From: Thermoflexales bacterium
Lineage (GTDB): Bacteria > Chloroflexota > Anaerolineae > J036 > Brachytrichaceae
Reading direction: 5' to 3'
DNA: 56,048 nucleotides
NCBI GenBank assembly: GCA_025056895.1
Contig: JANWVJ010000005.1
Location: 1 to 56,048 of the forward strand
Under the pieces are notes generated by a model. The model was not told the origin of the DNA and searched no databases. It saw only the letters and a program-made list of their open reading frames with translations. Shown one piece after another: positions 13,323-45,608 of the stretch. Position 1 is the stretch's first letter. Each line of letters opens with the position of its first letter. The position numbers were made by a program, and so were the translations under genes.

Positions 13323-13586
13323 ATGGACAACGCAATCACCCATACCTTGGCGCGCTACATCGCCGAGTCGATTCTCAATCAGCCTCGGCGCGTGATCCGC
13401 GAAGACGAGCCGCTCATCTCCAGCGGCTTGATCGATTCATTCCACTTGGTCGATCTGGGCTTGTTTGTCGAGGATCGCTTTGGTGTGCGGCTGGATGACA
13501 CAGAACTAAACAAAGAAACGTTTGACACGCTGGCGCAATTGACCGCCCTGATCACCACACGACGAGCGGAAGCCGGCCTATCGTGA
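13323..13586 (+). CDS. Acyl carrier protein-like protein
   Basis: This 87-residue protein fits the acyl/peptidyl carrier fold. The phosphopantetheine attachment Ser is in SGLIDSFHLVDL, where DSF replaces the usual DSL. It is followed by a helix VEDRFGVRLDD, as in carrier proteins. Such stand-alone carriers hold acyl or aminoacyl groups as thioesters. There is no fatty-acid synthase or peptide synthetase gene next to it, so its partner is unknown. The ATG at 13323 is chosen from the family N terminus; TACAAT lies ten bases upstream. The stop overlaps the 3' end of the converging phosphatase-like gene by nine bases. Confidence 0.82.
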   Translation: MDNAITHTLARYIAESILNQPRRVIREDEPLISSGLIDSFHLVDLGLFVEDRFGVRLDDTELNKETFDTLAQLTALITTRRAEAGLS

Positions 13587-14042
13587 ACCGTCACGAATCT
13601 GCGCTTTCATTCGCGCGATGAATTGCTCCCAAACTGGGTAGTCACTGCCGGCCCAAATCCGGGCGCGGAATGCTTCAGCTTGCTCTTCCGACCAGCCTAA
13701 CCACTTGAGGGCATACAGCGCGTAGAAGGCGGTGGCGCGGAAGTTTGCCGCGCAGTGCAACAAGACCTTGCCGGCGCCCGACCGCTGCATCGCCTGCTCG
13801 AACGCCGTGAAATCTTCGGGAGTAGGATTGTCCCATTCGACCGGAATGTGGATATATGCCATGCCCAACGATCGAACCAAGTGGCCTTCTTCCGGCAGCG
13901 CATTCGCCGAGCGTTCAGTCGCCAAGTTGATCACCGTGTCGAAGCCGGCAGCGGCTGCGGCGCTCAGCTCGTCAGGGGTGGGCTGACCGGCCGTGGCAAG
14001 TTTGTCGTGAACTTGGATGAAGTTGTAGATGGTTTCAATCAT
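13578..14042 (-). CDS. Protein tyrosine phosphatase-like protein
   Basis: The 154-residue protein has the Cys-phosphatase P-loop HCAANFRA (Cys-x5-Arg) near residue 98 and an early AGQPTPDELSAAAAAGF, typical of the DUF442/beta-lactamase hydrolase-like group of dual-specificity phosphatase-fold proteins. A downstream acidic EWDNPTPEDF may include the general acid Asp. It could dephosphorylate proteins or small molecules; in some relatives the domain is linked to sulfide metabolism. No such neighbour is present. A TATAGA box ten bases before the ATG suggests a very short leader. It overlaps the carrier protein gene tail to tail. Confidence 0.75.
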   Translation of the reverse strand: MIETIYNFIQVHDKLATAGQPTPDELSAAAAAGFDTVINLATERSANALPEEGHLVRSLGMAYIHIPVEWDNPTPEDFTAFEQAMQRSGAGKVLLHCAANFRATAFYALYALKWLGWSEEQAEAFRARIWAGSDYPVWEQFIARMKAQIRDGSR

Positions 14043-31652: not shown

Positions 31653-31757
31653 GAGATGAAGTGTAGCGTCAAATACGGCTTGCAGCGATCCACGGTGTAT
31701 ATCGATTCAGGTACTCAGGCAGTGTGGACACGCTCAAACGGATTATCATTGCGTCAA

Positions 31758-34700
31758 ATGGAATTCCACGTCTCTCGCGCCGCCCGCGATCTCTATCAGT
31801 TCGATGATGCTCTGTTTACGTTGACTGGCAACGTGATCTTTGCCGACTTTCACGCTGCGCGCCGCTTTGCGCAAAAGATGAACCAACGGCGCGATGTGAT
31901 ACGCCGCCCAGAACAGGCAGTGCAAGCCGGCCAGATCAACGCGATGGGCTTGATCGATGAAATCCTGCACTTTGTGGTTGCTCAGTACCGCAAGCAGCGT
32001 AACCCCCAAGCAATGGCCAAAGCGCTAACATGGCTGGAGGCGCGGCTAGGCCATCAGGAAGTCGATCGCGCCTTGACGGCCTTCGCCGAGGAGTTTCCTA
32101 CCGTTGCTGTTTATCGGAATGGACTGAGCGCCGCCGAATACATGAGCGGTGAGACAGAAGGCATTCCCAACCGGCAAGTGGCTCTAGAAGAAATGTTGAT
32201 GTTGTGGCTGGCCAACTTGAATCCGGCCTTTGCCCCATTCGGCGAACTGTTCGACGACACACGGCTGGAACGCGATACGGCCTATGCGCAGATCATGCCG
32301 GCCTTGCGCGAATTTTTTGACACCCAGCCGCGCTTTGGGCCGGAGAATCAAAATCTGATCGACATGTTGCGCGCGCCGGCGCTGGCCCACCCGCACTCGC
32401 TCAGCGATCAATTGCAGTTCATCGCCACGCGCTGGGCCGGCATCCTAGGCGAGTACCTGACGCGCTTGCTGATCAGCCTCGATCTGATCCGCGAGGAAAA
32501 CCGACCTGCCTTCAGCGGCCCGGGGCCGGCCCAAATCCCGATCTATGACCGCGCCGCACTCGCAGCGCTGGGGCTGGGTATGCCCGGCCCGGATATCGAG
32601 CGCTATAGCCCCGATCGCGATTGGATGCCGCGCCTGGTGCTGATCGCTAAAAACACCTACGTCTGGCTCGATCAGTTGTCGAAGAAGCATCGGCGCGAGA
32701 TTCGCCAATTGCACCAAATTCCTGATGAAGAGCTGGATCAACTCGCGCGCTGGGGTATCACCGGTCTATGGCTGATCGGTGTGTGGGAGCGCAGTCCCGC
32801 CTCGCAGCGCATCAAGCAGTTGTGCGGCAATCCCGATGCACTTCCTTCAGCCTACTCACTGTACGACTATCGCATCGCCAACGACTTGGGCGGCGAGGCA
32901 GCGTTGAACAACCTGCGCGCCCGCGCCGCACAACGCGGCATCCGCCTGGCCAGCGACATGGTGCCCAACCATATGGGCATCGATTCGCCCTGGGTCATCA
33001 ATCACCCAGATTGGTTCATCTCGCTTCCCTATCCGCCCTTTCCTACCTACAGCTTCAACGGGCCGGACCTGTCGCACGATGCGCGCGTAGGCATCTTCAT
33101 CGAAGACCATTACTACAACCGCAGCGATGCTGCTGTAGTGTTCAAACGCCTGGATCGTTGGACGGGCGACGCGCTGTACATCTATCACGGGAACGACGGC
33201 ACGAGCATGCCGTGGAACGACACCGCTCAACTCAACTACCTGAACCCCGAAGTACGTGAAGCGGTGATGCAAACCATTTTGCACGTGGCACGTCAATTTC
33301 CCATCATTCGCTTCGATGCGGCGATGACGCTGGCCAAGCGGCATTATCAGCGCCTCTGGTTCCCAGAACCGGGCGCCGGCGGGGCGATTCCTTCGCGGGC
33401 CGGCCTTGGCCTCACCCGCCAACAGTTCGACGAAGCGATGCCGGAAGAGTTTTGGCGCCAAGTGGTCGATCGCGTGGCCCAAGAAGCGCCTGACACCTTG
33501 TTGCTGGCCGAAGCATTTTGGCTGATGGAAGGCTACTTCGTGCGCACACTGGGCATGCACCGCGTGTACAACAGCGCCTTCATGAACATGCTGCGCGACG
33601 AAGACAACGCCAAGTACCGTTACTTGATCAAGAGCACCTTGGAGTTCGACCCGCAAATCTTGAAAAGGTACGTCAATTTCATGAACAACCCTGATGAGCG
33701 CACAGCGGTCGATCAGTTCGGCAAGGGCGATAAGTACTTCGGCATTTGCACGTTGATGGCGACTCTGCCGGGCTTGCCGATGTTCGGCCACGGTCAAATC
33801 GAAGGCTTCGCAGAAAAGTACGGTATGGAGTTCCGACGCGCCCTGTGGGATGAGCAACCGGACGGCTATTTGATCAGCCGGCACGAGCACGAAATCTTCC
33901 CCTTGCTACATCGCCGTTACCTTTTCTCCGACGTGGAACGATTCGAACTGTACGACTTCTTCACCGGCGATGGGGCGGTGTGTGAAGATGTGTTTGCCTT
34001 TTCAAACCGCCACGGCGAAGAGCGCGCGCTGGTGATATACCACAACAAATTCGCCGAGGTGCGCGGCTGGATTCGCACGTCAGTCGCTGCATTGCGGCCA
34101 ACGTCCAACGGTGAGGGCGCACCCTCAGGACGCGCGCTCAGACAAACCACTCTGGTTGAAGGGCTGGGGCTGGTAGCAGAAGAGGGCTGGTTCACCTTAT
34201 TCCGCGACCTGGTTACCGGCCTGGAATACATCCGCAACAACGCCGCGCTGGCAGAGCAAGGCTTGTATGTCGAGTTGGCGGCCTATAAACGCCATGTGTT
34301 CCTCGATTTTCGCCAAGCGCAAGATGTCAACGGGCGTTACGCGCGCATCGCCGCCCATCTGAACGGTCGCGGCGTTCCCAGTGTGGAAGCTGCCTTGCGC
34401 GAGCTGGAATTGCAACCGATCCTAGACCCCTTCCGCACACTCCTAAACAGCGATGTGCTCTATCAACTCATCGAGCTGCGCTTGAGCGCTGAGCCGGCCC
34501 GCAACACCACGCTGCTGGATGATGTCGAGCAGCGCGTTCAACACGCTTATGCCGCAGCCCTGGCATTTGCGCGAGGTGAACCGGCTACTACTCACCCCGC
34601 ACTCGATCCGGCGGCGATTGCCGGCGAGATGCGCCGCAAGCTGGAGACACTTCTGATAGCTCAACCAGAGGATGAACAGAGCGGGGAGGACGCCTTGCAC

Positions 34701-35267
34701 GCTTACTTGCGCGCCCACCTTCCGCCCGACACGGCATCGTGGGTTGCCGGCTTGGCCTGGTTGTTCGTCAGCGAAATCGGTAGGGTGATGCAGGGCGATC
34801 ACCTGGCCGAAGCAGGGCGTGAACTCTTGGACGAATGGCGGCTGTCGGCCGTCATCGCCAAGGCCGGTCATCAAATCGGGCTGGACGATGGCGCAGTGAC
34901 TCATGCACTGGCGCTGGTCAAAACGCTGATGATGCACCAGTGCTGGTTCGACAGCGCCGGCATCGACACGCCGCCTGACCTGACCACATTCGCCCGCGCC
35001 CTGTTCAGTGACGCCGACGTCTGCACCTACTTGGGCGTCAATCGCTACAACAACATCTTGTGGTTCAACAAAGAATCATTCGAGCGGTTGGTGTGGTGGC
35101 TATTGGCGTTGGCCGATCTAAACTTAGACCGTCTGGAGCCAGCCGAGGCGCACGCGCGGCGCGAACAGCTCGTTGCCGCTGCACACAGGCTGCACGAGGC
35201 AGAACGCGCCTCTGGCTATCAGGTCGAACAACTGCTTGAAGCCCTGGCACACGGCGAGACGCTGTGA
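31758..35267 (+). CDS. Large GH13 alpha-amylase-family glycosidase
   Basis: The 1169-residue protein has an N-terminal region of about 330 residues without recognised motifs. A GH13 barrel follows: region I DMVPNHMG near residue 400, region II IIRFDAAMTL with the nucleophile Asp near 519, region III LLLAEAFWL with the acid Glu near 585, and region IV FMNNPDERTAVDQFG near 645. The last has Pro where most families have His (NHD). A C-terminal region of roughly 400 residues follows, rich in helices. No signal peptide is visible, so it should act in the cytoplasm, perhaps on glycogen or maltodextrins. The ATG at 31758 is preferred to the frame start at 31656 because a TATCAT box sits eight bases before it. 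Confidence 0.82.
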   Translation: MEFHVSRAARDLYQFDDALFTLTGNVIFADFHAARRFAQKMNQRRDVIRRPEQAVQAGQINAMGLIDEILHFVVAQYRKQRNPQAMAKALTWLEARLGHQEVDRALTAFAEEFPTVAVYRNGLSAAEYMSGETEGIPNRQVALEEMLMLWLANLNPAFAPFGELFDDTRLERDTAYAQIMPALREFFDTQPRFGPENQNLIDMLRAPALAHPHSLSDQLQFIATRWAGILGEYLTRLLISLDLIREENRPAFSGPGPAQIPIYDRAALAALGLGMPGPDIERYSPDRDWMPRLVLIAKNTYVWLDQLSKKHRREIRQLHQIPDEELDQLARWGITGLWLIGVWERSPASQRIKQLCGNPDALPSAYSLYDYRIANDLGGEAALNNLRARAAQRGIRLASDMVPNHMGIDSPWVINHPDWFISLPYPPFPTYSFNGPDLSHDARVGIFIEDHYYNRSDAAVVFKRLDRWTGDALYIYHGNDGTSMPWNDTAQLNYLNPEVREAVMQTILHVARQFPIIRFDAAMTLAKRHYQRLWFPEPGAGGAIPSRAGLGLTRQQFDEAMPEEFWRQVVDRVAQEAPDTLLLAEAFWLMEGYFVRTLGMHRVYNSAFMNMLRDEDNAKYRYLIKSTLEFDPQILKRYVNFMNNPDERTAVDQFGKGDKYFGICTLMATLPGLPMFGHGQIEGFAEKYGMEFRRALWDEQPDGYLISRHEHEIFPLLHRRYLFSDVERFELYDFFTGDGAVCEDVFAFSNRHGEERALVIYHNKFAEVRGWIRTSVAALRPTSNGEGAPSGRALRQTTLVEGLGLVAEEGWFTLFRDLVTGLEYIRNNAALAEQGLYVELAAYKRHVFLDFRQAQDVNGRYARIAAHLNGRGVPSVEAALRELELQPILDPFRTLLNSDVLYQLIELRLSAEPARNTTLLDDVEQRVQHAYAAALAFARGEPATTHPALDPAAIAGEMRRKLETLLIAQPEDEQSGEDALHAYLRAHLPPDTASWVAGLAWLFVSEIGRVMQGDHLAEAGRELLDEWRLSAVIAKAGHQIGLDDGAVTHALALVKTLMMHQCWFDSAGIDTPPDLTTFARALFSDADVCTYLGVNRYNNILWFNKESFERLVWWLLALADLNLDRLEPAEAHARREQLVAAAHRLHEAERASGYQVEQLLEALAHGETL

Positions 35268-35277
35268 TCCCGACAGC

Positions 35278-36474
35278 ATGATTGTCCGCCACCTGTCGCT
35301 CACCAATTTCCGCCTCTATGCGCGGCTGGAGCTGGACTTATCGTCCGGCTTGACCATCGTGCAGGGCGACAATGCCCAGGGCAAGACCTCCCTGTTGGAA
35401 GCGATTTACTTCCTGGCCACCGCGCACTCGCCGCACACCCACACAGACCGTCAAATCATTCGCTGGGCTGCGGAAGAGGAAGCGGCCTATCCATTCGCCA
35501 TTCTCAAAGCCGAGGTGTTGCGGCGCGATGGGCCATGTCTACTGGAGATCGGACTACAACGTGCCGATTCAGGCCGGCTCAAAAAGGAAATTCGCATCAA
35601 TCATGCGCCACGCCGGGGCATCGACTTGGTCGGGCAACTGGCGGTGGTGTTGTTCCTGCCGAGCGACGTGGAGATCGTTGCCGGCGCGCCGGCTTTGCGC
35701 CGACGCTATCTCGATGCAGCCCTGTCGCAGGTGGACGCTGCCTATGTGCGCGCGCTCGATCAATATGAGCACGCCCTGGCGCAACGCAACGCCCTGTTGC
35801 GTCAAGCGCAGGAACGCCGGGTTGATCCAGACGAGTTTGCCGTGTGGGATGAGCAGCTTGTACCGGCCGGCGTAGATGTGGCGCTGCGGCGCCGGCGCGC
35901 CGTTGCTGAGCTGACCCAGTTGGCGTTGCCGGTTCATCGCCGTCTGTCCAACGGCCAAGAGTACTTGGAAATTCTCTATCGACCTAACTTCGATCCATCG
36001 GCGCCGGTCTCATCAGAACGTGTCTATCAGATCGGCCTCGACCCGGCCAGCCCTCCAAACGGCTTCAATCGCGCCGATCTAGAAACAGCTTTCCGCAGAG
36101 CATTGATCAATCGACGGCGCGAAGAGATTGCACGAGGGGCGACGTTGACCGGCCCTCACCGCGATGATTTGCGCTTTATCGCCAACGGCGTTGATTTGGG
36201 CGACTACGGCTCGCGAGGGCAACAACGCACGGCGGTTTTGTCGTTGAAGTTGGCCGAGGCAGACTGGATGCGCGCGCGCATTGGCGAAGCGCCGGTATTG
36301 CTACTCGATGAAGTGCTGGCCGAGTTAGACCCGAATCGACGGCGGTGTTTGTTGGAGCACATCGGCAGCTTGCATCAGACCATCGTTACGACTACCGACG
36401 TCGGCCGCTTCGATTCAGCATTCGTCCAACAAGCAACTGTGCTCACGGTGGCGCACGGCGTGTTGAACTTGTGA
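35278..36474 (+). CDS. recF: DNA replication and repair protein RecF
   Basis: The 398-residue SMC-like ATPase helps load RecA at gaps. It has Walker A VQGDNAQGKTSLLEA near residue 30, the signature YGSRGQQRTAVLSLKLAE, Walker B VLLLDEVLAELD near residue 345, and the RecF-type LTNFRLYARLEL at the N terminus and GPHRDDLRF. The ATG at 35278 lies ten bases after the GH13 stop, so the two may be co-transcribed. The gyrB gene is 4 kb upstream, but gyrB-recF adjacency is interrupted here by hpt and the glycosidase gene. It converges on the SGNH-like gene. Confidence 0.94.
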   Translation: MIVRHLSLTNFRLYARLELDLSSGLTIVQGDNAQGKTSLLEAIYFLATAHSPHTHTDRQIIRWAAEEEAAYPFAILKAEVLRRDGPCLLEIGLQRADSGRLKKEIRINHAPRRGIDLVGQLAVVLFLPSDVEIVAGAPALRRRYLDAALSQVDAAYVRALDQYEHALAQRNALLRQAQERRVDPDEFAVWDEQLVPAGVDVALRRRRAVAELTQLALPVHRRLSNGQEYLEILYRPNFDPSAPVSSERVYQIGLDPASPPNGFNRADLETAFRRALINRRREEIARGATLTGPHRDDLRFIANGVDLGDYGSRGQQRTAVLSLKLAEADWMRARIGEAPVLLLDEVLAELDPNRRRCLLEHIGSLHQTIVTTTDVGRFDSAFVQQATVLTVAHGVLNL

Positions 36475-36511: not shown

Positions 36512-37642
36512 TCAGTCACGTCTTGCTATCTTCTGCACAGCCTCTGCAATTCGGTTTGCCAACAGAAGCGAGCCGGCCGGCGTGAGATGCACCGCGCTGT
36601 TCGTGAACTCGCTCATCGGAACGATGTCCCACACATCCAGATAGTGCCACCGGTTACGTTGCGCCTCGGCTGCCAAAAGAGCGCGATATTGATCGTAGGC
36701 CCAGCGCGGATAGAAGAAGTTGTAACGCACGTCGCTGTTGCGACCGTTGCTGATCAGAATCGGTTCGTTGACCAACAGGATAGGCGTTGCACCGGCCAGG
36801 GCATGGCCGGCGCGCAGCACATCCAGAGCGAGGTCTTCTGCTCGCAGCATGGGTGGCTTGAGGTCATGGAAGGTCTCATCGGCTTCCAGGTCAATCGCCG
36901 CCGGCTCGTAGTCGGGATAATCTTGATCGATGCCGGTAGCTGCCCACAGCACACCGTATAGTTGCAGGCGAATGATATCGGCCACGTGACGCCGCCGACC
37001 GACCACCGTGCGATCAAAAACAGATGGGTCAATCAGGCGGGCGTCGTTCGGATCGAGCGCCAGCCCATACTCGGCAATCAGCGCCCGCACGGCCGAGGCA
37101 TTGTTTTGTACGAGCGGATGGATGAGCTGGCGGTTGCGCGGCAGCGATTCTAGCGTCACCAACCAGACGATTAAATCCGGCTGATAGCGCATAGCTTCTC
37201 GCAAGAGCAGCAGGTCTTTGGTCACCGACATGATGGGATAGCCGAGGTTGTACACGCGCACGCGGCGTCCATCCGGCGACATGTATCGGCCGGCGTTCAG
37301 ATATGCAGCCAGCGTCTGCTCCGGTTTGAGCAGGAAGCCCCACACCGACGAGTCGCCAATCAATAGGATGCGATATTCATCAGCCGGCTTGGGGCCAGCG
37401 TTGATCTCATGGGCGGCGAACATCGCGTTTAAGGTGTAGAGGCTGAGGTTGTACGCGCGGTCTGGAAAGTCGCTGTAGGGCAAGCGGGGGCGTCCGGGAA
37501 AGATCACGTTGTACGCCGATAGCGAACCAATGGCCGGCAGCGGATCTACAAGCACAAACAGCGCGTTAATCAACACAAACAGCGCGAGCGCTTTGACCGC
37601 AATGCGCCCCATTGCAGGGCGATGGATATCGACGCGACTCAT
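36512..37642 (-). CDS. Membrane-anchored SGNH-like protein downstream of an MBOAT acyltransferase
   Basis: The 376-residue protein has one N-terminal membrane segment (about residues 14-38) and an extracytoplasmic domain with the SGNH block I motif ILLIGDSSVWGF near residue 97 and VHLTPAGSLLLANRIAE near the C terminus. The usual Asp three residues before the catalytic His is Ser here. Proteins of this layout next to MBOAT enzymes (AlgJ/AlgX, DltD-like) receive acyl groups from the MBOAT partner and transfer them to surface polymers. It follows the MBOAT stop by seven bases on the same strand. The open frame extends far upstream into the MBOAT gene; the ATG at 37642 is chosen as the only plausible start. 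Polymer and acyl group are unknown. Confidence 0.8.
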   Translation of the reverse strand: MSRVDIHRPAMGRIAVKALALFVLINALFVLVDPLPAIGSLSAYNVIFPGRPRLPYSDFPDRAYNLSLYTLNAMFAAHEINAGPKPADEYRILLIGDSSVWGFLLKPEQTLAAYLNAGRYMSPDGRRVRVYNLGYPIMSVTKDLLLLREAMRYQPDLIVWLVTLESLPRNRQLIHPLVQNNASAVRALIAEYGLALDPNDARLIDPSVFDRTVVGRRRHVADIIRLQLYGVLWAATGIDQDYPDYEPAAIDLEADETFHDLKPPMLRAEDLALDVLRAGHALAGATPILLVNEPILISNGRNSDVRYNFFYPRWAYDQYRALLAAEAQRNRWHYLDVWDIVPMSEFTNSAVHLTPAGSLLLANRIAEAVQKIARRD

Positions 37643-37649
37643 CTTAGAT

Positions 37650-39149
37650 TTATCCCCCAAACAACGTTGCGAACAGGTCCAACGCCTGGCCGACATCCGG
37701 CAGCACAAACCAAACCCAGCCCAAGGCGACAAAGTGGAAGGTGAGTGCAATGTTGAACGCGGCCACGGCGCGCGTGCGCCAAACGGATGTCGGCGTCGAA
37801 GGCAGATCGGCATTGGCGCTGCGCGCGCGCATCCAAGCTGACCAGCGATTGTGAATGAACAACCCCAGCGCATGCCATACGCCCCATAGCGCAAAGTTCC
37901 ATGCGACGCCGTGCCACAGGCCGATCAGGAGCATGGTGCTGGTCTGGCCGATTAAGATCACGCGCGATGCATCTCGCCCGATGCTGCGCGTGCGCAGCCA
38001 GCGGGTGAGTGGATTGAACCAGTAGGCGCGGAACCAATTAGCCAGTGTCATGTGCCAACTGTTCCAAAACAGGGTCAGATTCGGACGCAAGTAAGGCCGG
38101 TCGAAGTTCTCCGGCAGCCGCACACCGAACAGCCGGCCCATTCCTACGGCGATATCGGTGTAACCGCTGAAGTCCAGGTACAGCCGAAAGGCATAGGCGT
38201 ACACCAGTACCCAGGCCCACCCCGCTGTTTGGACTTGGCCTGCGTTGGTTGGGTTGAGGGCGATCAGCGCCAACGTGTCGGCCAGAGCAAATTTCTTAAA
38301 CAGACCGATGAAGATACGCTGTAGGCCGGCGCTCACATCCTCTGCGCGCGCGTCGATTTGTTCCGGCGCAGCGTCCCAGGTGCGCACATCTTTGACAAAG
38401 CGCTCGGCGCGATCAATCGGGCCGGCTACCAGCGCAGGGAAAAAGAGGACATAGATCACAAATTCGCGCAGCGAGAGCGCCGGCAAACGGCCTGCCGCAT
38501 GATCGCGTAGAACATGAATGAGTCGGAAGGCAATGTACGAGAAACCCAGCCAGCTCACATCAAACGCAGACGCCTGCGCCACCGACTGTCCGCTCAACGA
38601 ACGCAACAGCGCGCTCAAGCCGGCGCCGAGCGGCTCTGTTTTGAGCACAACAAACACCCCCAACACCATCACCAACAGAGCCGCGTTCAATTGGCGCGCG
38701 CCGGCAAGGAATTGCCCGAATCCGGCGCACAGGGCGACAATTGCCAACACCACCACCAGAATCGCCGTCGCTTCAGGCGGACGCGAGGGGGTCAGGCAAC
38801 ACAGCGCGTCGATGTAGCGGGTAGCGCCGATCAACAGGACCAGGCCGGCGACAACCGACGCCGTTACCAGGGTAGTCGGGATGTCGATAGGGCGTGGGCG
38901 GCTCGTCACAGTCCAGATCAATCCCACCAACGCCAACGTCGCGGTGGGCAGCCAAAAATCCAGGTGACGAATCGGCGTGGAGGGTTGCAGCCAGTACAGC
39001 GCAATCACGCCGGCAGCCAACATCAGCCAGGGACGCGCAGCGCGCACTGCATTGCGCCATCGCTCCAGGCCGCTGCGCGCCACAGCGAGCGCCAGTGTGC
39101 CAAACACGCTTGCGCTGGCGGTGAACACCAGAATTTGGATGAGGCTCAT
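37650..39149 (-). CDS. MBOAT-family O-acyltransferase
   Basis: The 499-residue integral membrane protein has about ten hydrophobic segments. The AlgI/DltB-type MBOAT signature is present: LYLDFSGYTDIAVGMGRL, the conserved SWHMTLANWFRAYWF near residue 370 and the catalytic-type His in IGLWHGVAWNFALWGVWHAL near residue 430. Such enzymes move an acyl group, often acetyl from acetyl-CoA, across the membrane onto an extracytoplasmic carrier or polysaccharide. The downstream gene encodes an SGNH-like protein that could complete the transfer. A 38-codon membrane peptide gene lies 19 bases upstream on the same strand. Confidence 0.9.
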   Translation of the reverse strand: MSLIQILVFTASASVFGTLALAVARSGLERWRNAVRAARPWLMLAAGVIALYWLQPSTPIRHLDFWLPTATLALVGLIWTVTSRPRPIDIPTTLVTASVVAGLVLLIGATRYIDALCCLTPSRPPEATAILVVVLAIVALCAGFGQFLAGARQLNAALLVMVLGVFVVLKTEPLGAGLSALLRSLSGQSVAQASAFDVSWLGFSYIAFRLIHVLRDHAAGRLPALSLREFVIYVLFFPALVAGPIDRAERFVKDVRTWDAAPEQIDARAEDVSAGLQRIFIGLFKKFALADTLALIALNPTNAGQVQTAGWAWVLVYAYAFRLYLDFSGYTDIAVGMGRLFGVRLPENFDRPYLRPNLTLFWNSWHMTLANWFRAYWFNPLTRWLRTRSIGRDASRVILIGQTSTMLLIGLWHGVAWNFALWGVWHALGLFIHNRWSAWMRARSANADLPSTPTSVWRTRAVAAFNIALTFHFVALGWVWFVLPDVGQALDLFATLFGG

Positions 39150-39168
39150 GCGATCAGACGCAGCGCGG

Positions 39169-39285
39169 CTAGAACCCTTGATAAATCCACTGCGGGGCTT
39201 GGTCGGCAGTCAGCACAATCAACGCCATTGCCATCAAACAGATCATCAACGCAATCAGGTTTTCGCGGGTGAACAAGCGGCGCAT
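39169..39285 (-). CDS. 38-residue predicted membrane peptide, first gene of the MBOAT cluster
   Basis: The frame runs from an ATG at 39285 to a TAG at 39169-39171. The peptide begins MRRLFTREN, has one hydrophobic helix (about residues 10-26) and ends DQAPQWIYQGF. The positive N terminus predicts the helix inserts with the N terminus inside. It lies 19 bases before the MBOAT start in the same direction. Small membrane peptides occur next to other MBOAT systems, where they can be accessory subunits (DltX beside DltB). No Shine-Dalgarno sequence is visible. I am fairly confident it is translated because of its position and composition, but cannot assign a family. Confidence 0.6.
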   Translation of the reverse strand: MRRLFTRENLIALMICLMAMALIVLTADQAPQWIYQGF

Positions 39286-39359
39286 AGGTGAAATGTGGGC
39301 CGACGGCTAAAACAGATATAAGGGCAAGCTATATTAGCAACGGAGGATAGAAAACGGTC

Positions 39360-39842
39360 CTACTCATAGCCGCACATGCGCCACTCACCGCCTTCGGCGA
39401 TCAGTTTGAATTTGCGTTTGTCAAGCGGCAGAGGACGGTCTTCACCGTTGTAGTTGGCGACGATGTTGCCGGCGCAGAGCACCAGCGCCGTCTGTGGGTC
39501 CAGGCTGTCTACCGTGCAGGCCATGCCTTCCAAACGGGCCTTTACCCCGCGCAGCGAGTTGGATTCTTTGCGGGCATCGCTTTCCCAGCCGGCGCACGAG
39601 AGATTGATCATGGCATTCGTATCGGCTGCCACACGCGCCGTCAGGTAGTCTTCGATCACCTGCGCTGGATCGCCGACGATGCCTCCGCCGGCCTGGACAG
39701 GAGCAGTCGCGACAGGAACAGGTGTTGAGTCGGTCGGTGTTGTTACACCGCTTTGACGATCTGCGGTTTGGCAGCCGGCCAGGCCGGCCAGCATCAGCAA
39801 CGCCGGCCCAAGCAGGCCGGCGCGCACGAGAATCAACTTCAT
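39360..39842 (-). CDS. Small lipoprotein of unknown function (NTF2-like guess)
   Basis: The 160-residue protein has a signal peptide ending in the lipobox LAGLAGC. A Thr/Pro/Val-rich linker leads to a compact domain of about 105 residues beginning VIEDYLTARVAADTNAMINL and ending GGEWRMCGYE. Four Cys in the mature domain could form two disulfides. The repeated helix-then-sheet layout with GEW near the end resembles NTF2-like lipoproteins, a weak call. The ATG at 39842 is chosen because the signal peptide begins there; an ATG 33 bases earlier is also in frame. It points toward the MBOAT group and diverges from the LysM gene across 115 bases. Confidence 0.75.
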   Translation of the reverse strand: MKLILVRAGLLGPALLMLAGLAGCQTADRQSGVTTPTDSTPVPVATAPVQAGGGIVGDPAQVIEDYLTARVAADTNAMINLSCAGWESDARKESNSLRGVKARLEGMACTVDSLDPQTALVLCAGNIVANYNGEDRPLPLDKRKFKLIAEGGEWRMCGYE

Positions 39843-39942
39843 GCGTGTACCTCTGGGATCGGCTCGGCGGCACATCGCATCAGCGCCGAGCCGGCGTTGA
39901 TGAGCGATTGTGTGCGCCGAGTCTGTTGTGCGGTTGGTCGGC

Positions 39943-39948
39943 TACAAT
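39943..39948 (+). promoter_or_regulatory. Likely -10 box of the LysM-SH3-SGNH gene
   Basis: TACAAT lies nine bases before the ATG at 39958, without a Shine-Dalgarno sequence between. Transcription would start within a few bases of the start codon. The -35 region is not clear. Confidence 0.4.
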
Positions 39949-39957
39949 CCGCGCCGT

Positions 39958-41451
39958 ATGCGCCGACCAAACCGGCCTAATTTTAACCGTCCCTTTGCTA
40001 CGTGGGTTGTGCTGGCGGCGGGCCTCGTCATGGTGATCGCCGGCGCGATCAGCGTGGCGTTGCTCGCACCACACAGCAGCGGGCAGCCTGTGGCATTCAA
40101 CATTACGCCGCGTGTCACGCTGTATGCAACCTGGCCGCCCCCAACCGACACGTCTCCCCCTACTCTCCCTACGCCGACTGCGGAAGCAGCGGTGGTTGCC
40201 CCGACGCCGACAGCGCAGAGCACAATGTACACCGTTGTGGAAGGGGACACGCTGTGGGACATTGCCGTGCGATTCGGTCTCAGCCTCGATACCTTGATTG
40301 CTGCCAATCCGAACATCAATCCGGATTTGCTGAGTCTGGGCATGGTGCTCAACATCCCTGCGCCGGGCGCCGCTTTGCCCACTGTGCCCACACGGGCGCC
40401 GGCCGTCGGCGCACCGAGCACGACTGCTTCGGCGCACGTGCGCCTTGACGCCGGCGGTCTGCGTCTGCGGCGCAGCCCCAGCGCCCAAGCAGAGGTGATT
40501 ACCAAGCTCGCTCCGCAGACGTCGCTGCGCGTGCTGGCGCGCACAGCAGACGATTTCTGGCTACAGGTAGTCACGCCGCAAGGCACACAAGGATGGGTGA
40601 TGCAGCAATACGTCGACCTGAACGTGCCGCTGGCGCAGATTCCGGTCGAGGGCAACGCGACCTCGGAAGCCGGCGCATCGGCGCAAGCGCCGCCGGCTGC
40701 CATTCCCGACGATCCAAATTTGTCGAACATGACCGGGCGTGTGTGGCAAATATATCAAGCCGGTCAAGCAATGGGCAACCGTCCGAACGTCTTTTCTTTG
40801 ATCGGCGACAGTAACACGGCCAACACAGCGTTCTTTGCGCCGTTCGATTGGGGCAACTACACCTTAGGCCGCTACGCCTACTTGCAAGACACGATCGATT
40901 TCTTCCGTGGATCGTTCTCTCGCGAGCGCATCGCGGCGCGGGGTGGCTTCAATACCACCAAGGCGCTCGACCCGGCCAATGCGCCGGCCGGCTGCGCAGC
41001 CGGCGAATCGCCGCTGGCATGTGAAGTACGCCTCAATCGGCCAAGTGTGGCATTCATTTTGCTCGGCACGGGCGACCAACACACGTGGCAAGGCTTTGAA
41101 GGACGTTACCGGCAAATCATCGAGCTTTTGATCGGTCAAGGCGTGATCCCGGTGTGCCTGACCAAAGGGGATGATCTGGAGTCAACGGACAGCCAAGCCC
41201 CGTATGGTTACATTAACGACATCATCCGGCGGCTAAGTCGTGAGTACGGTGTGCCCCTGCTAGACCTACGACAAGCCCTGGCTGCGCTTCCCAACCGTGG
41301 CTTTGAGGCCGACGGTTTTCACATCAACAAGCCGCCGGACGGGCAATCGGCCAACCTGACCGGCAGTTATCTGTCCTATGGCTACAACATGTACAACCTA
41401 ACGGCGCTGCGCGCGCTTGATGTAATCCGCCGGCAGGTGATAGGACGGTGA
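39958..41451 (+). CDS. Membrane-anchored LysM-SH3-SGNH surface protein
   Basis: The 497-residue protein has a membrane anchor (residues 14-37), a Thr/Pro linker, a LysM domain at 90-134 (YTVVEGDTLWDIAVRFG), a bacterial SH3 domain at about 160-221 (LRLRRSPSAQAEVITKLA) and an SGNH-like domain from about 276. The latter has LIGDSNTAN with Ser285 as candidate nucleophile, a Gly-rich ARGGFNT, LLGTGDQH in place of GxND, and DGFH near residue 450 supplying Asp and His. A CxxxxxxxxC pair (CAAGESPLAC) probably forms a disulfide. LysM binds peptidoglycan or related glycans, so it should be a wall-bound esterase or transferase. Two paralogues follow on the other strand. Confidence 0.82.
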   Translation: MRRPNRPNFNRPFATWVVLAAGLVMVIAGAISVALLAPHSSGQPVAFNITPRVTLYATWPPPTDTSPPTLPTPTAEAAVVAPTPTAQSTMYTVVEGDTLWDIAVRFGLSLDTLIAANPNINPDLLSLGMVLNIPAPGAALPTVPTRAPAVGAPSTTASAHVRLDAGGLRLRRSPSAQAEVITKLAPQTSLRVLARTADDFWLQVVTPQGTQGWVMQQYVDLNVPLAQIPVEGNATSEAGASAQAPPAAIPDDPNLSNMTGRVWQIYQAGQAMGNRPNVFSLIGDSNTANTAFFAPFDWGNYTLGRYAYLQDTIDFFRGSFSRERIAARGGFNTTKALDPANAPAGCAAGESPLACEVRLNRPSVAFILLGTGDQHTWQGFEGRYRQIIELLIGQGVIPVCLTKGDDLESTDSQAPYGYINDIIRRLSREYGVPLLDLRQALAALPNRGFEADGFHINKPPDGQSANLTGSYLSYGYNMYNLTALRALDVIRRQVIGR

Positions 41452-41522
41452 GGCATAAGGATGAAGGATAAGCGGTGAGCGGGAAACCGCTGGGCGAGGA
41501 ATGGCCGAGAGCGAGAAACGTG

Positions 41523-41562
41523 GCGCGCGGCAGCCGGTGGTGTCTCCTGTTCTGCCGCGCGC
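41523..41562. other. Inverted repeat between convergent SGNH-like genes
   Basis: GCGCGCGGCAG (41523-41533) is perfectly complementary to CTGCCGCGCGC (41552-41562) with an 18-base loop. No T run follows on either strand, so termination would be weak or Rho-assisted. The surrounding 130-base gap holds no gene. Confidence 0.5.
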
Positions 41563-41581
41563 TCTGGCGCACGCAAGCCGT

Positions 41582-42649
41582 CTATCGCCAGATTTGGTCA
41601 AGTACTTGTACTGTCTGAAGCAGATGGATGTAAGAACCGCCGGGGCCAAGGTGAAAATCGGCGTTGCCTTCATCCAGTAAGCCATAGTTAGGCAGATCGC
41701 GCGTCGCCTTCCAGAAGTCCATCACCGGCACGCCATACTCTGCGCCGACTTTACGGATGACATTGTTGATGTATTCCTCCGGCGCGTCGGCTTGTTGATA
41801 CTCTAGGGCATCTGCTTTGGTGATCAGCACAGGCAACACGTTGCTCTTCAATGTTGTCTCGACCACCGCGCGGAAATTGGCCTCAAAATCGCGCCAGATA
41901 TGAGTGTCGCCGGTTCCCAACTCGATAAAGGCGATGCTGGCTTTGGACATGCGCAATTCACAGGCGAGGGGAGACTCGCCGGCTTTGCAGAAATAAGGAT
42001 CGGCCCAGGTGGGGTCTAGAACGGCAGCGCTGTTGAAACCGCCGGCAGCAGCCAGACTGACACGGGCGAAGGCGCGTGTGAAGCGCGCAACGGTGGCGGG
42101 GTAGGCGCGGTATTGCTCATAACCGAACAGACCGGCAGCCAATCGCCCTACATACGCCGTAGGTTGCGAGTTGCAATCGCCGATCACGGCAAACATCGTG
42201 GCATCGCGACCGGCGGCAATGGCTTTGCGGTAGAGCGCTTTCTGCGCAGCGGTGATGACCGGTGTGCCGGGCACAGTGATCGGGCCGGGTCGGCCGGGCG
42301 GCACGGGCGGCGGCATTTTATTGGCCGGCAGCGGCTTGACACTTTTCAACTCACCGATCACCTCACCCAGCGAGGCGATGATCCAAGTGCCACTGATTGC
42401 GTTTGGATAGGACAGTTGCAGCCATATGTTGTCGGCAGTGCGGCCAACGATTTCAAAGCGGTCGCCTTTGAACACCGGATAAGTGTTTGCAGAGAGCAAG
42501 GTCGGTTGCTGGCGCAGATAAGCGCCGGGGGTGACGATCGCAAATTGGGGCGCCTGGTTGCTTTGGGCGTGCGCCGGCACAACCGGTGCGGCGCACAGCA
42601 TCGCCACAAAGCCACCTAGCGCTAACAAGCGCATGGTTCGATTGTTCAA
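41582..42649 (-). CDS. Exported SH3-SGNH paralogue with Cys in the nucleophile position
   Basis: The 355-residue protein has a signal peptide ending in PAHAQS, an SH3-like domain (about residues 33-95, with GRTADNIWLQLSYP), a Pro-rich linker (PPPVPPGRPGP) and an SGNH-like domain. The block I motif is VIGDCNSQ, with Cys159 where the family has Ser; ELGTGDTHIW matches block III, and DFHLGPGG supplies a His with Asp at -2 rather than -3. The disulfide pair CKAGESPLAC is conserved with its paralogues. The start is decided by GGAGG: the TTG at 42649 lies six bases after it, whereas the frame's first TTG is inside the motif. Activity may be altered or lost; a binding role is possible. Confidence 0.78.
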   Translation of the reverse strand: MNNRTMRLLALGGFVAMLCAAPVVPAHAQSNQAPQFAIVTPGAYLRQQPTLLSANTYPVFKGDRFEIVGRTADNIWLQLSYPNAISGTWIIASLGEVIGELKSVKPLPANKMPPPVPPGRPGPITVPGTPVITAAQKALYRKAIAAGRDATMFAVIGDCNSQPTAYVGRLAAGLFGYEQYRAYPATVARFTRAFARVSLAAAGGFNSAAVLDPTWADPYFCKAGESPLACELRMSKASIAFIELGTGDTHIWRDFEANFRAVVETTLKSNVLPVLITKADALEYQQADAPEEYINNVIRKVGAEYGVPVMDFWKATRDLPNYGLLDEGNADFHLGPGGSYIHLLQTVQVLDQIWR

Positions 42650-42705
42650 GATCAGCCTCCTCAAAAAAGCATGTTCTCTCTAGCTCTGAATCTCAAGTCT
42701 AAGCC

Positions 42706-42728
42706 GGCTTCGATAACGCCTCGAAGCC
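42706..42728 (-). other. Stem-loop between the two minus-strand SH3-SGNH genes
   Basis: GGCTTCGA (42706-42713) pairs with TCGAAGCC (42721-42728) around a seven-base loop. It lies 15 bases after the stop of the upstream paralogue. Without a T run, it may act in mRNA processing or as a weak terminator. Confidence 0.4.
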
Positions 42729-42743
42729 GAGCCGTTCGTGGCT

Positions 42744-43949
42744 TCATCGCGCAACGGCGTTTAAGGTCATCAAAGTCATCACCAACCGCAGGTCCATGCC
42801 GTAGCCGTTGAGATGAAAGCGTGACGCCGCCGCATAGACCAACCCACGACCGGGGATTTCTCGTCCTTCTTCTGCCAGACCTTGGTCGGGCAGCCGGCGG
42901 GCAGCCAGGGCAAAGTCCATCACCGGCAGTTGGTACTGCGCTCCCAATCGTCGAATCACGTTGTTGATGGCCTCAGGCGGCGCGCCCCCTTGCGTGGATT
43001 CCAGACTATCGGCTTTGGTGACCAGCACCGGCAGCGCTTTGTGTTCTAGAACCGTGTCGATGATGCGGCGATAGTTGGCCTCAAAGTCCTGCCAGATGAA
43101 CGTGTCGCCTGTGCCGAGCGCGATGAAGATGATGCTGGCGTTCGAGCGGCGCAGTTCACACGCCAGCGGACTTTCGTTTGCGCGGCACTGTTGGGCGTTA
43201 CTGAACAAGGGATCGAGCACCGAGGCACTGTTGTGTCCTCCGTCCACGGCCAAGCTGACCCGTTCAAAAGAACGGGCAAATTTTTTGGCGACCGGTTGCA
43301 AGGCTGCAAAACCGTTGCCGGCCAGATCAAACCCGCCGGCAGCGAAACGGCCCAGATAGACCTGCGGCTCTGAATTGCAGTCGCCGGCCACGGTGAACAG
43401 GTTTGGGTCGCGCCCAGCAGCAACTGCTTGGCGATAGAGCTGGCGCGCGCGGGGGGTAATCGTTGGCACACCTGGCGTTGCCATACGAACGCGGCTCGGA
43501 GAAAGGCCGCCGGCTGTTTCACGCACGGGCAGCGCGGCCAACGCAGGTGCGTTCAGGCCCTCTAAATCTCCCGCAAAGCGCACCATGCTGCGATGCAGCC
43601 AGGCCAGATTGTTGCCGAAATCCACTTGCAGCCATTCACCGTTTGGATTGCGAGCCAGGGCGATAAATGTTTGCCACTTCATGACGCGTCCGATTTGGCC
43701 GCTGTTCCAATCCGGCGCTAAATACGCATACGCACTGTCTATGTTCACCGTAACAAGAAGGCTGGGTGCAAGACTTCCCTGCTTGGCGACAGCGCCGGCG
43801 GCAGCCGCTGAGGCATGGCCTTGGGTTGGGGACGGCGAGTTGAAAAGCACATTCCCGACCACCACCATCAGCGTCAGCCCAACAGCGTGCAAGGATGCAA
43901 ACAAAAAGGTGCGCAGCAGATGGCGGCACATTTGAGCCGGCTTGCTCAT
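42744..43949 (-). CDS. Membrane-anchored SH3-SGNH paralogue with Cys in the nucleophile position
   Basis: The 401-residue protein has an N-terminal membrane segment (about residues 14-38), an SH3-like region (about 63-122, with LARNPNGEWLQVDFGNN) and an SGNH-like domain. Block I reads VAGDCNSEP with Cys191 replacing Ser, block III ALGTGDTFIW, and the C-terminal SRFHLNGYG keeps His but has no Asp at -3. The pair CRANESPLAC is shared with the other two proteins. The start is the ATG at 43949, with GAGGAG nine bases upstream; an in-frame ATG occurs at 43976. With its neighbour it forms a likely two-gene transcript, preceded by an operator-like palindrome. Confidence 0.78.
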   Translation of the reverse strand: MSKPAQMCRHLLRTFLFASLHAVGLTLMVVVGNVLFNSPSPTQGHASAAAAGAVAKQGSLAPSLLVTVNIDSAYAYLAPDWNSGQIGRVMKWQTFIALARNPNGEWLQVDFGNNLAWLHRSMVRFAGDLEGLNAPALAALPVRETAGGLSPSRVRMATPGVPTITPRARQLYRQAVAAGRDPNLFTVAGDCNSEPQVYLGRFAAGGFDLAGNGFAALQPVAKKFARSFERVSLAVDGGHNSASVLDPLFSNAQQCRANESPLACELRRSNASIIFIALGTGDTFIWQDFEANYRRIIDTVLEHKALPVLVTKADSLESTQGGAPPEAINNVIRRLGAQYQLPVMDFALAARRLPDQGLAEEGREIPGRGLVYAAASRFHLNGYGMDLRLVMTLMTLNAVAR

Positions 43950-43994: not shown

Positions 43995-44175
43995 AGGAAG
44001 ATTGTATAACGTCAGGTCGAGACGAAGGAGCTGTTCGATCGATACACCGGCGTAGTATCGCGTTGGATCAACCCTGTGCGCCGAGTCGCCACGCTGCTCT
44101 TCTCAGCGCGCTCACAGATCATTCACAGCAGTAAATTAAACGATATTGAGTGATAATGCCGGAGTCCTCGTAGGG

Positions 44176-45120
44176 ATGTCAGCCGGCCGGGAGCAGATGA
44201 GCATGGCAAGACCGCAGGCGGAGATTGGCCTTAACCCGCATATGGGCGGGCAGAATAGTGCATTTGAAGAGTTGGTTCGCATCAACACGAATGATTTCAT
44301 CACGGCGATTGGTCTGGAGCACTTGAAGAGAGGCCGAGGGATTTTAACCGCCTTGTTGCGCCCGTTGGCCGTGCGGTTTGCCAAGCAAGTGCTGATGTTC
44401 GACGAGATCGTAGCCACCCGAGGCCTGCCGGCAGCCGGCGAGTGGGTCACGCGCGAGTTTGCCGCCGGCTACACCGTCCTTGGCTGGCGCGAGGAATTGC
44501 GCAACGGGCCGGTACTGTTTGTATCCAATCATCCGGGGCTAACCGACGCGCTGGCTTTGTTCGCCGCGATTGATCGCAACGACCTGGCCATCATTGCCAG
44601 ACATCGTGATTTTCTACACGCCATTCCAAACATCGCGCGGTATTTGATCTATGTGTCGGACGAGGGCAGCGATCGTTCGTTAGCGATCCGCGCGGTGCGC
44701 GATCACCTGCGGGCCGGGCGGGCGGTGTTGTTGTTCCCGGCCGGCAAGATCGAGCCGGACCCGTTGGCGTTGCCCGGAGCCGCCGAGGCACTCTCGGAGT
44801 GGTCGAGCAGCATCGGGTTGATCGCTCGGCTGGTGCCAGAAGCGCTGATCGCGCCGGTGATCGTAAGTGGCGTGCTGTCACGCGCTGCGCTGCGCAATCC
44901 GATCACACGCATCCGCAAGCAAAAAAAGGATCGTGAATGGCTGGCAGCGACGCTGCAGGTGATTGTGCCGGCTTATCAACATGTGCAGGTACACCTCAAC
45001 TTTGGCGCGCCTGTTCCGGCTGGAGAACTGGTACGGCACTACGGAGATGCTATCGCTGTCACGCAAGCGGTGGTTGCGCGCGCGCGCGCGTTGTTGCCTC
45101 CAGAACCCCTCAATCGGTGA
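44176..45120 (+). CDS. PlsC-like glycerol-phosphate acyltransferase family protein
   Basis: The roughly 314-residue protein has the acyltransferase block I VLFVSNHPGLTDALALF, with His-x4-Asp, followed by a block III-type LLFPAGKIEPDP, as in PlsC-family 1-acylglycerol-3-phosphate acyltransferases. An early QVLMFDEIV region is not diagnostic. It probably transfers an acyl chain from acyl-ACP or acyl-CoA to a lipid precursor at the membrane. The start is uncertain: a TTG at 44146 and ATGs at 44176, 44197 and 44203 are in frame, and none has a well-placed Shine-Dalgarno sequence except possibly the last (GGGAG nine bases before). It may or may not belong with the acyl-modification genes to its left. 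Confidence 0.78.
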   Translation: MSAGREQMSMARPQAEIGLNPHMGGQNSAFEELVRINTNDFITAIGLEHLKRGRGILTALLRPLAVRFAKQVLMFDEIVATRGLPAAGEWVTREFAAGYTVLGWREELRNGPVLFVSNHPGLTDALALFAAIDRNDLAIIARHRDFLHAIPNIARYLIYVSDEGSDRSLAIRAVRDHLRAGRAVLLFPAGKIEPDPLALPGAAEALSEWSSSIGLIARLVPEALIAPVIVSGVLSRAALRNPITRIRKQKKDREWLAATLQVIVPAYQHVQVHLNFGAPVPAGELVRHYGDAIAVTQAVVARARALLPPEPLNR

Positions 45121-45125
45121 ATGCG

Positions 45126-45608
45126 CTAGGACTTGTGTCCCTCTGTGATAGCTTGACAGAGCGCCTGGTCTAGAGCAGCCAGCGCCATGTCACGGATGTG
45201 TCGATTGATGAAATAGCGCGAGAGCGTGTCAATCGAGAGATACTTGGCACCGGCTACCAGTCGCACACACTGTGGCGCCCCGCACAGGCAAATGAACGGG
45301 CGATCCATTTCCCATTCTGTGGACGGATAGAAGAACGTCAGTTCTTCGCCGGCAGCGATATCACGCGCTGCGCGGACTTCCATCGCTGTCGTGTCCACGA
45401 TCGTGTTGGGCCGGCAAGAGTGGTTCAGATAGGCCAACACACCCAATTCCTCGATATGTGTATCAGGGCCGATCTGCACGGTTTGATAAGTGGCCTGATG
45501 GGTGACGCGATAGCCTGTGATGGCGCAAATCAACTCACCCTGGCGGTATGGACGGTCGGTGACCAAGCGTGCTCCGTATGGACTGCCGCCGGTTTCGATT
45601 CGCAACAT
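45126..45608 (-). CDS. SET-domain protein
   Basis: The 160-residue protein is a compact SET domain, the catalytic fold of protein-lysine methyltransferases. It has the S-adenosylmethionine/lysine pocket motif YLNHSCRPNT near residue 60, the C-terminal GEELTFFY near 88, and a post-SET-like CLCGAPQC with three Cys that could bind zinc. The start at 45608 is supported by AGGAGG seven bases upstream. Bacterial SET proteins are sporadic and often laterally acquired; few substrates are known. It converges on the PlsC-like gene with five bases between stops. Confidence 0.85.
   Translation of the reverse strand: MLRIETGGSPYGARLVTDRPYRQGELICAITGYRVTHQATYQTVQIGPDTHIEELGVLAYLNHSCRPNTIVDTTAMEVRAARDIAAGEELTFFYPSTEWEMDRPFICLCGAPQCVRLVAGAKYLSIDTLSRYFINRHIRDMALAALDQALCQAITEGHKS

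Follow-up and report, generated by a model that had tools for sequence, protein, structure and literature searches.

A group of genes in the genome of a Chloroflexota bacterium (Thermoflexales bacterium, GenBank assembly GCA_025056895.1) probably encodes an acyl relay with the architecture of the Dlt system, in which fatty acyl groups are supplied by an acyl carrier protein and moved out of the cell. The whole stretch of DNA analysed, here called the window, is contig JANWVJ010000005.1 (C271; 56,048 nucleotides) of a 3.29 Mb genome that is 87% complete. The core of the system consists of three genes on the minus strand, whose open reading frames were confirmed: a membrane microprotein of 38 residues (X, 39169-39285), an MBOAT protein of 499 residues (B, 37650-39149) and an SGNH protein (D, 36512-37642). 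Since the gaps between X and the MBOAT gene and between the latter and the SGNH gene are of 19 and 7 nucleotides, the three genes are compatible with one transcript, as had been proposed in an earlier note on the window. Directly upstream of X, at a distance of 74 nucleotides and on the same strand, lies a lipoprotein gene (39360-39842, lipobox LAGC), which is probably part of this transcript; scans for promoters and terminators returned matches no more numerous than expected by chance. The remaining components are three exported proteins of SH3-SGNH type, described below, and an acyl carrier protein (C, 13323-13586, plus strand, with a DSF phosphopantetheine site), which lies outside the region considered in the earlier note; all of the seven open reading frames reported there are present where it had placed them.

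The microprotein X has a positively charged N-terminus and one hydrophobic segment, corresponding to one transmembrane helix, followed by the C-terminus ADQAPQWIYQGF, which ends in APQWIYQGF; the tyrosine of this motif (Tyr35) is predicted to be the acyl-carrying residue. In the Dlt system D-alanine is carried from DltB to DltD on the tyrosine of the C-terminal FXYXXF hexapeptide of DltX, and in PatA-type MBOATs the FXYXXF motif is fused to the MBOAT itself; other MBOAT-SGNH pathways are said to be without a DltX-like microprotein (PMC12148441, 2025), a rule to which X, standing beside its MBOAT, is an apparent exception. No family was assigned to X by searches of Pfam and NCBIfam. When loci were found via orthologs of the MBOAT, leaving the peptide unused, an adjacent small open reading frame ending in [WF]IYQG[FY] was observed at 25 of 26 (WIYQGF at 23, WIYQGY and FIYQGF at one each), and in the remaining genome (G007) X is encoded on another contig (E 9e-19). 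This adjacency, together with codon differences between the window and its congener that are mostly synonymous (12 synonymous, 8 nonsynonymous) and with the silence of a reversed control pattern, argues that X is a real gene.

The C-terminal pattern occurs in 52 of 247 genomes of the class Anaerolineae (0 for the reversed control), the sole match outside the class, in a sample of the phylum, being of FIYQGF type (G388). A search of 85,000 species genomes for the DNA pattern [AS]Px[WF..]IYQG[FY]-stop returned at least 119 stretches, and the 80 matches listed come nearly all from Chloroflexota and mostly from Anaerolineae; among these listed matches one (L152) has neither such an open reading frame nor the neighbours, and another (L146) is a true DltX. 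The nearly complete conservation of PxWIYQGF in 78 loci found in this way is partly built into the pattern, the unbiased figure being the 25 of 26 given above. At testable loci an MBOAT gene follows X within 600 nucleotides in 52 of 63 cases and the lipoprotein gene precedes it in 49 of 72, while D, the carrier and a fatty acyl-AMP ligase (FAAL) are its neighbours in 27 of 35, 12 of 18 and 10 of 18, respectively. The order in relatives is lipoprotein, X, MBOAT, DltD-like SGNH protein, in some cases a Cys-type SGNH protein, carrier and FAAL (L101, L107, L117, L125, L153, L158, L162 and others), and it is conserved across Anaerolineae; the genes form a conserved unit, and the loss of gene order that the earlier note had named in advance as refuting its proposal did not occur. 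The operon runs into the carrier and the AMP ligase at L101, L104, L107, L117, L125, L129, L132, L153, L158, L162 and L168, and also at L058, L059, L072 and others, of which the three named have some parts missing or placed elsewhere; in the window genome all of the parts are present in dispersed form. The parts also co-occur: a FAAL was found in 23 of 25 genomes with X and in 1 of 25 without it (p 1.2e-10), and for proteins of the SH3-SGNH family the corresponding counts are 21 of 25 and 2 of 25 (p 7e-8), Fisher values that ignore the relatedness of the genomes and are only indicative. At L145 (1154-6700) X shares an operon with a carrier, a FAAL and three SGNH genes of DltD type, between which an MBOAT was not detected.

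The MBOAT (Pfam, 1.7e-19) resembles DltB: its PDB matches are to DltB only (E 3e-43), and it matches the LTA_dltB model TIGR04091 with E 3.7e-64, its score of 217 bits falling under the cut-off of 375, vs 420 bits for the DltB of a true dlt locus in the relative G014. Two histidines, His366 and His413, which lie in the WHM and LWHG segments, are shared by all 27 aligned proteins, none of which carries a C-terminal FxYxxF motif; it appears, therefore, that the motif absent from the MBOAT is supplied by the separate peptide X. MBOATs of AlgI/PatA type from the same class (L035, L036 and two in L072) end in FIYFQF or FVYLQF. The SGNH protein D has an N-terminal membrane anchor, a Pfam GDSL match (4e-5) and, invariant in the alignment, the GDS serine (Ser79, A1 numbering) and His333. 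According to its AlphaFold model (pLDDT 95), D would fold like DltD over its whole length; indeed, the model aligns with the DltD structures 6pfx, 3bma and 6o93 over 269-282 residues with Z about 14 (6o93: 282 residues, Z 14.1), whereas for TesA-like hydrolases with the same Z the alignment is confined to the SGNH core, about 170 residues. The top match by Z is CgnD (16.1 over 214 residues).

The two proteins that would feed this core are the carrier and the ligase. In the window carrier a PP-binding domain was found, the match to the DltC model is weak, and the identity to the operon-encoded carrier of G014 is 71%; the FAAL of the window genome (67% identity) is in two pieces because of a break in the assembly, one at the end of C242 and the other at the start of C259. 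The operon ligase has as its best PDB match LpFAAL (3pbk, 4e-63), in an alignment that runs through residues 334-390, the FAAL insertion region, and it scores highly with the NCBIfam fatty acyl-AMP ligase models; by family it is thus classed as a FAAL, closer to FAALs than to acyl-CoA ligases, and its use of fatty acids is presumed on this basis. A phosphatase-like gene (13578-14042, minus strand) adjoins the window carrier, and this neighbourhood is kept in G001, where the carrier likewise stands alone beside the same phosphatase-like gene (L053).

The exported SGNH proteins are encoded by a LysM-SH3-SGNH gene (39910-41451, plus strand, likely start 39958, with GDSN and DGFH motifs), an SH3-SGNH gene (41582-42664, minus strand, GDCN) and an SH3-like/SGNH gene (42744-43949, minus strand, GDCN). 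The LysM domain is clear (Pfam, 1.4e-14), and SH3_3 matches the first of these paralogues at 1.1e-10 and the second at 0.0087, the Pfam search of the third giving no SH3_3 match; Lipase_GDSL_2 matches across the locus range from 4e-5 to 2e-9. Structure prediction assigns these proteins to the SGNH fold, as the earlier note had expected, and the second outcome that it had named as refuting, a fold other than SGNH, was therefore not obtained either: the model of 41585-42664 (mean pLDDT 83) places an SGNH domain behind a small beta domain and matches TesA (Z 15.7), the OatA SGNH domain (Z 15.2) and others, with Z scores of 15-17 for alignments of 151-173 residues and the best score, 16.7, obtained over 173. 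What that note had read as degeneration is better described as a recurrent change from serine to cysteine at the position of the nucleophile; block III is variable, and so in part is the aspartate. In the window this position is serine in the LysM paralogue and cysteine in the other two (Cys164 and Cys191), and in the alignment of relatives 35 members have cysteine and 33 serine. The distribution follows operon position, cysteine being present in 16 of 16 proteins whose genes lie between those of B and D or between those of D and the carrier, and serine in 20 of 23 encoded before the lipoprotein or the MBOAT; because this pattern is not random, it suggests that the cysteine has a function. The mature 41582-42664 protein contains three cysteines, Cys164 of the GDC motif and Cys226 and Cys235; the latter two are invariant in the family and perhaps form a disulfide. 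A family-wide link between the cysteine and loss of the DxxH aspartate was dropped, 21 Cys-type members having kept the aspartate. A fourth paralogue of SH3-SGNH type, with GDSN, is encoded elsewhere in the window genome (L004, G000:C260:28249-29115). The third window gene is adjoined by a PlsC-like acyltransferase gene (44146-45120, plus strand; Pfam, 1.6e-5), weakly similar to OlsF and GlsA, which is not counted as a component because no relative showed it beside these genes; a small protein that by eye looks like a SET-domain protein (45126-45608, minus strand) follows, and on the other side of the locus lie unrelated neighbours (31656-36474, plus strand), a 1203-residue protein of alpha-amylase-type appearance and then a RecF-like gene, both assigned by eye.

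From these components the following mechanism can be proposed. The FAAL, as expected of its family, would activate a fatty acid with ATP and load it onto the dedicated small carrier; the DltB-like MBOAT would accept the acyl group at the inner face of the membrane, where the carrier delivers it, and pass it through its channel to the tyrosine of the X WIYQGF motif, a step modelled on the chemistry of DltX and PatA; the acyl-tyrosine would then swing to the catalytic serine of the DltD-like protein outside, and D would transfer it to an acceptor outside the cytoplasm, which is probably a polymer of the wall or a molecule associated with it. The LysM and SH3 domains of the exported SGNH proteins hint at the wall, and these proteins may be partners or editors of the final transfer, in which the Cys-type members may act with a cysteine nucleophile or as binding pseudoenzymes. 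It is rather unlikely that the system is a new class of envelope acylation, a fatty-acyl counterpart of Dlt in which the relay runs from the carrier thioester to the tyrosine of X, the serine of D and finally the cysteine of an exported SGNH acyltransferase that delivers the group in the wall. As a whole, the acyl transfer by an MBOAT and SGNH partners at the cell surface that was claimed in the earlier note is supported; its generic glycan O-acylation, which took no account of the motif of X, of the carrier or of the FAAL, is to be replaced by acylation of Dlt architecture, carrier-fed and probably fatty-acyl.

Several observations weigh against such a carrier-fed, fatty-acyl relay. The parts, their conserved order, their co-occurrence and their families are read from sequence; the route of the acyl group is drawn from homology with Dlt and PatAB, and all of the chemistry, the identity of the group and the acceptor are inferred. 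The group is likely fatty acyl by FAAL membership, which does not give its length and is no proof of a long-chain substrate. The first motif position of X is tryptophan, vs phenylalanine in the published motif, and X does not match the Pfam DltX family PF12459, whose single match in 14 rows is L146, the control with a true DltX. In the window genus the carrier and the FAAL are unlinked from X, B and D. No FAAL match was obtained in two X-bearing genomes (G105 and G217), and the reverse, a FAAL with X not found, applies to G037 and to the incomplete G018 and G019. Finally, L120, L126 and L142 encode X-like microproteins with, in the stretch examined, no MBOAT nearby; the system may be arranged differently there, and in L120 and L142 the gene immediately upstream of X is FAAL-like.

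The alternative with most weight concerns the acceptor. That it is not a glycan but an exported protein or a lipid, such as the lipoprotein or an SH3-SGNH protein, and that the machinery serves lipidation at the surface, is a less probable reading, suggested by the steady upstream position of the lipoprotein gene and the co-occurrence of the SH3-SGNH family with X reported above; it concerns the last step only and overlaps with the carrier-fed relay, and it is opposed by the known action of DltD-like enzymes on polymers and by the fact that no acylation site could be identified. A different input, namely plain O-acetylation of AlgIJ/PatAB type from acetyl-CoA, with the FAAL and the carrier serving another pathway, would fit the unlinked genes of the window genus. 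FAALs are commonly part of pathways that lead to lipids or polyketides. This alternative is nevertheless unlikely, for the FAAL and the carrier lie within the operon in many relatives of several families, the FAAL co-occurs with X, and the MBOAT is without the fused motif of MBOATs that use acetyl-CoA. An ordinary Chloroflexota system of D-alanylation would agree in all four parts of the export core (DltX-like peptide, DltB-like MBOAT, DltD-like SGNH protein and small carrier) and is most improbable, the adenylating enzyme being a FAAL and not DltA, for which 0 of 31 genomes exceeded the TIGR01734 cut-off (best E in the window genome 1.5e-16), and the DltC model TIGR01688 being passed only in G014, at another locus.

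Searches of the window genome for DltA and DltC found no ortholog; because DltA is absent and the family thresholds of DltX, DltB and DltC are not reached, the fatty-acyl relay is not classed as a Dlt system, although, judged by its anatomy, it works in the same way. The true systems of the phylum are recognisable: the DltX of L146 ends in APEFIYQGF, exceeds the Pfam DltX gathering score and is followed by DltA and DltB, and G014 encodes both systems, the FAAL-type one and, at a separate locus (L052, L211, G014:C140), DltC together with DltA and DltB adjoining a DltX that ends in PPYIYQGF.

The tyrosine acyl shuttle on a separate microprotein has been described for D-alanylation only, and here the same architecture would be coupled to fatty-acid activation, in an environmental class whose envelope chemistry is little known and in an uncultivated group of Chloroflexota in which fatty acyl groups appear to be moved to the outside of the cell. 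If the system works as proposed, Anaerolineae should have ester-linked fatty acyl groups exposed at the cell surface; it also bears on the capacity of the shuttle for larger acyl groups and provides a family of SGNH proteins with cysteine in place of serine. A literature search for a link between a fatty acyl-AMP ligase and an MBOAT or DltB found none, a weak absence, subscription papers and preprints being outside its scope.

Among known systems the closest is DltXABCD, with which are shared the microprotein with its C-terminal [F/W/Y]IYQGF tyrosine motif, a DltB-like MBOAT without fused motif, a membrane-anchored DltD-like SGNH protein, a small carrier, an adenylating enzyme and the clustering of the genes; in contrast with it, a FAAL replaces DltA, the carrier lies outside the DltC cut-off, X is unmatched by Pfam DltX, a conserved lipoprotein and the LysM/SH3/Cys-SGNH proteins are added, and in G014 the system is separate from the true dlt locus. 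With O-acetylation by PatAB and AlgIJ it has in common an MBOAT, an SGNH partner and, presumably, the tyrosine shuttle chemistry, and with alginate acetylation the presence of several SGNH proteins per system; in those systems the motif is at the MBOAT C-terminus and acetyl-CoA is used (PMC12148441), whereas the present system has the motif on a peptide of its own and includes genes for a carrier and a FAAL. The ligase family and the stand-alone carrier recall the modules of FadD32, FadD28 and LpFAAL, which feed polyketide or lipid synthesis, whereas here they are linked to an export core of MBOAT, DltX-like peptide and SGNH protein. Acylation by an MBOAT and an SGNH partner is thus of a known kind, and what is new is the combination of a Dlt export core with FAAL input and additional SGNH proteins of Cys and Ser type.

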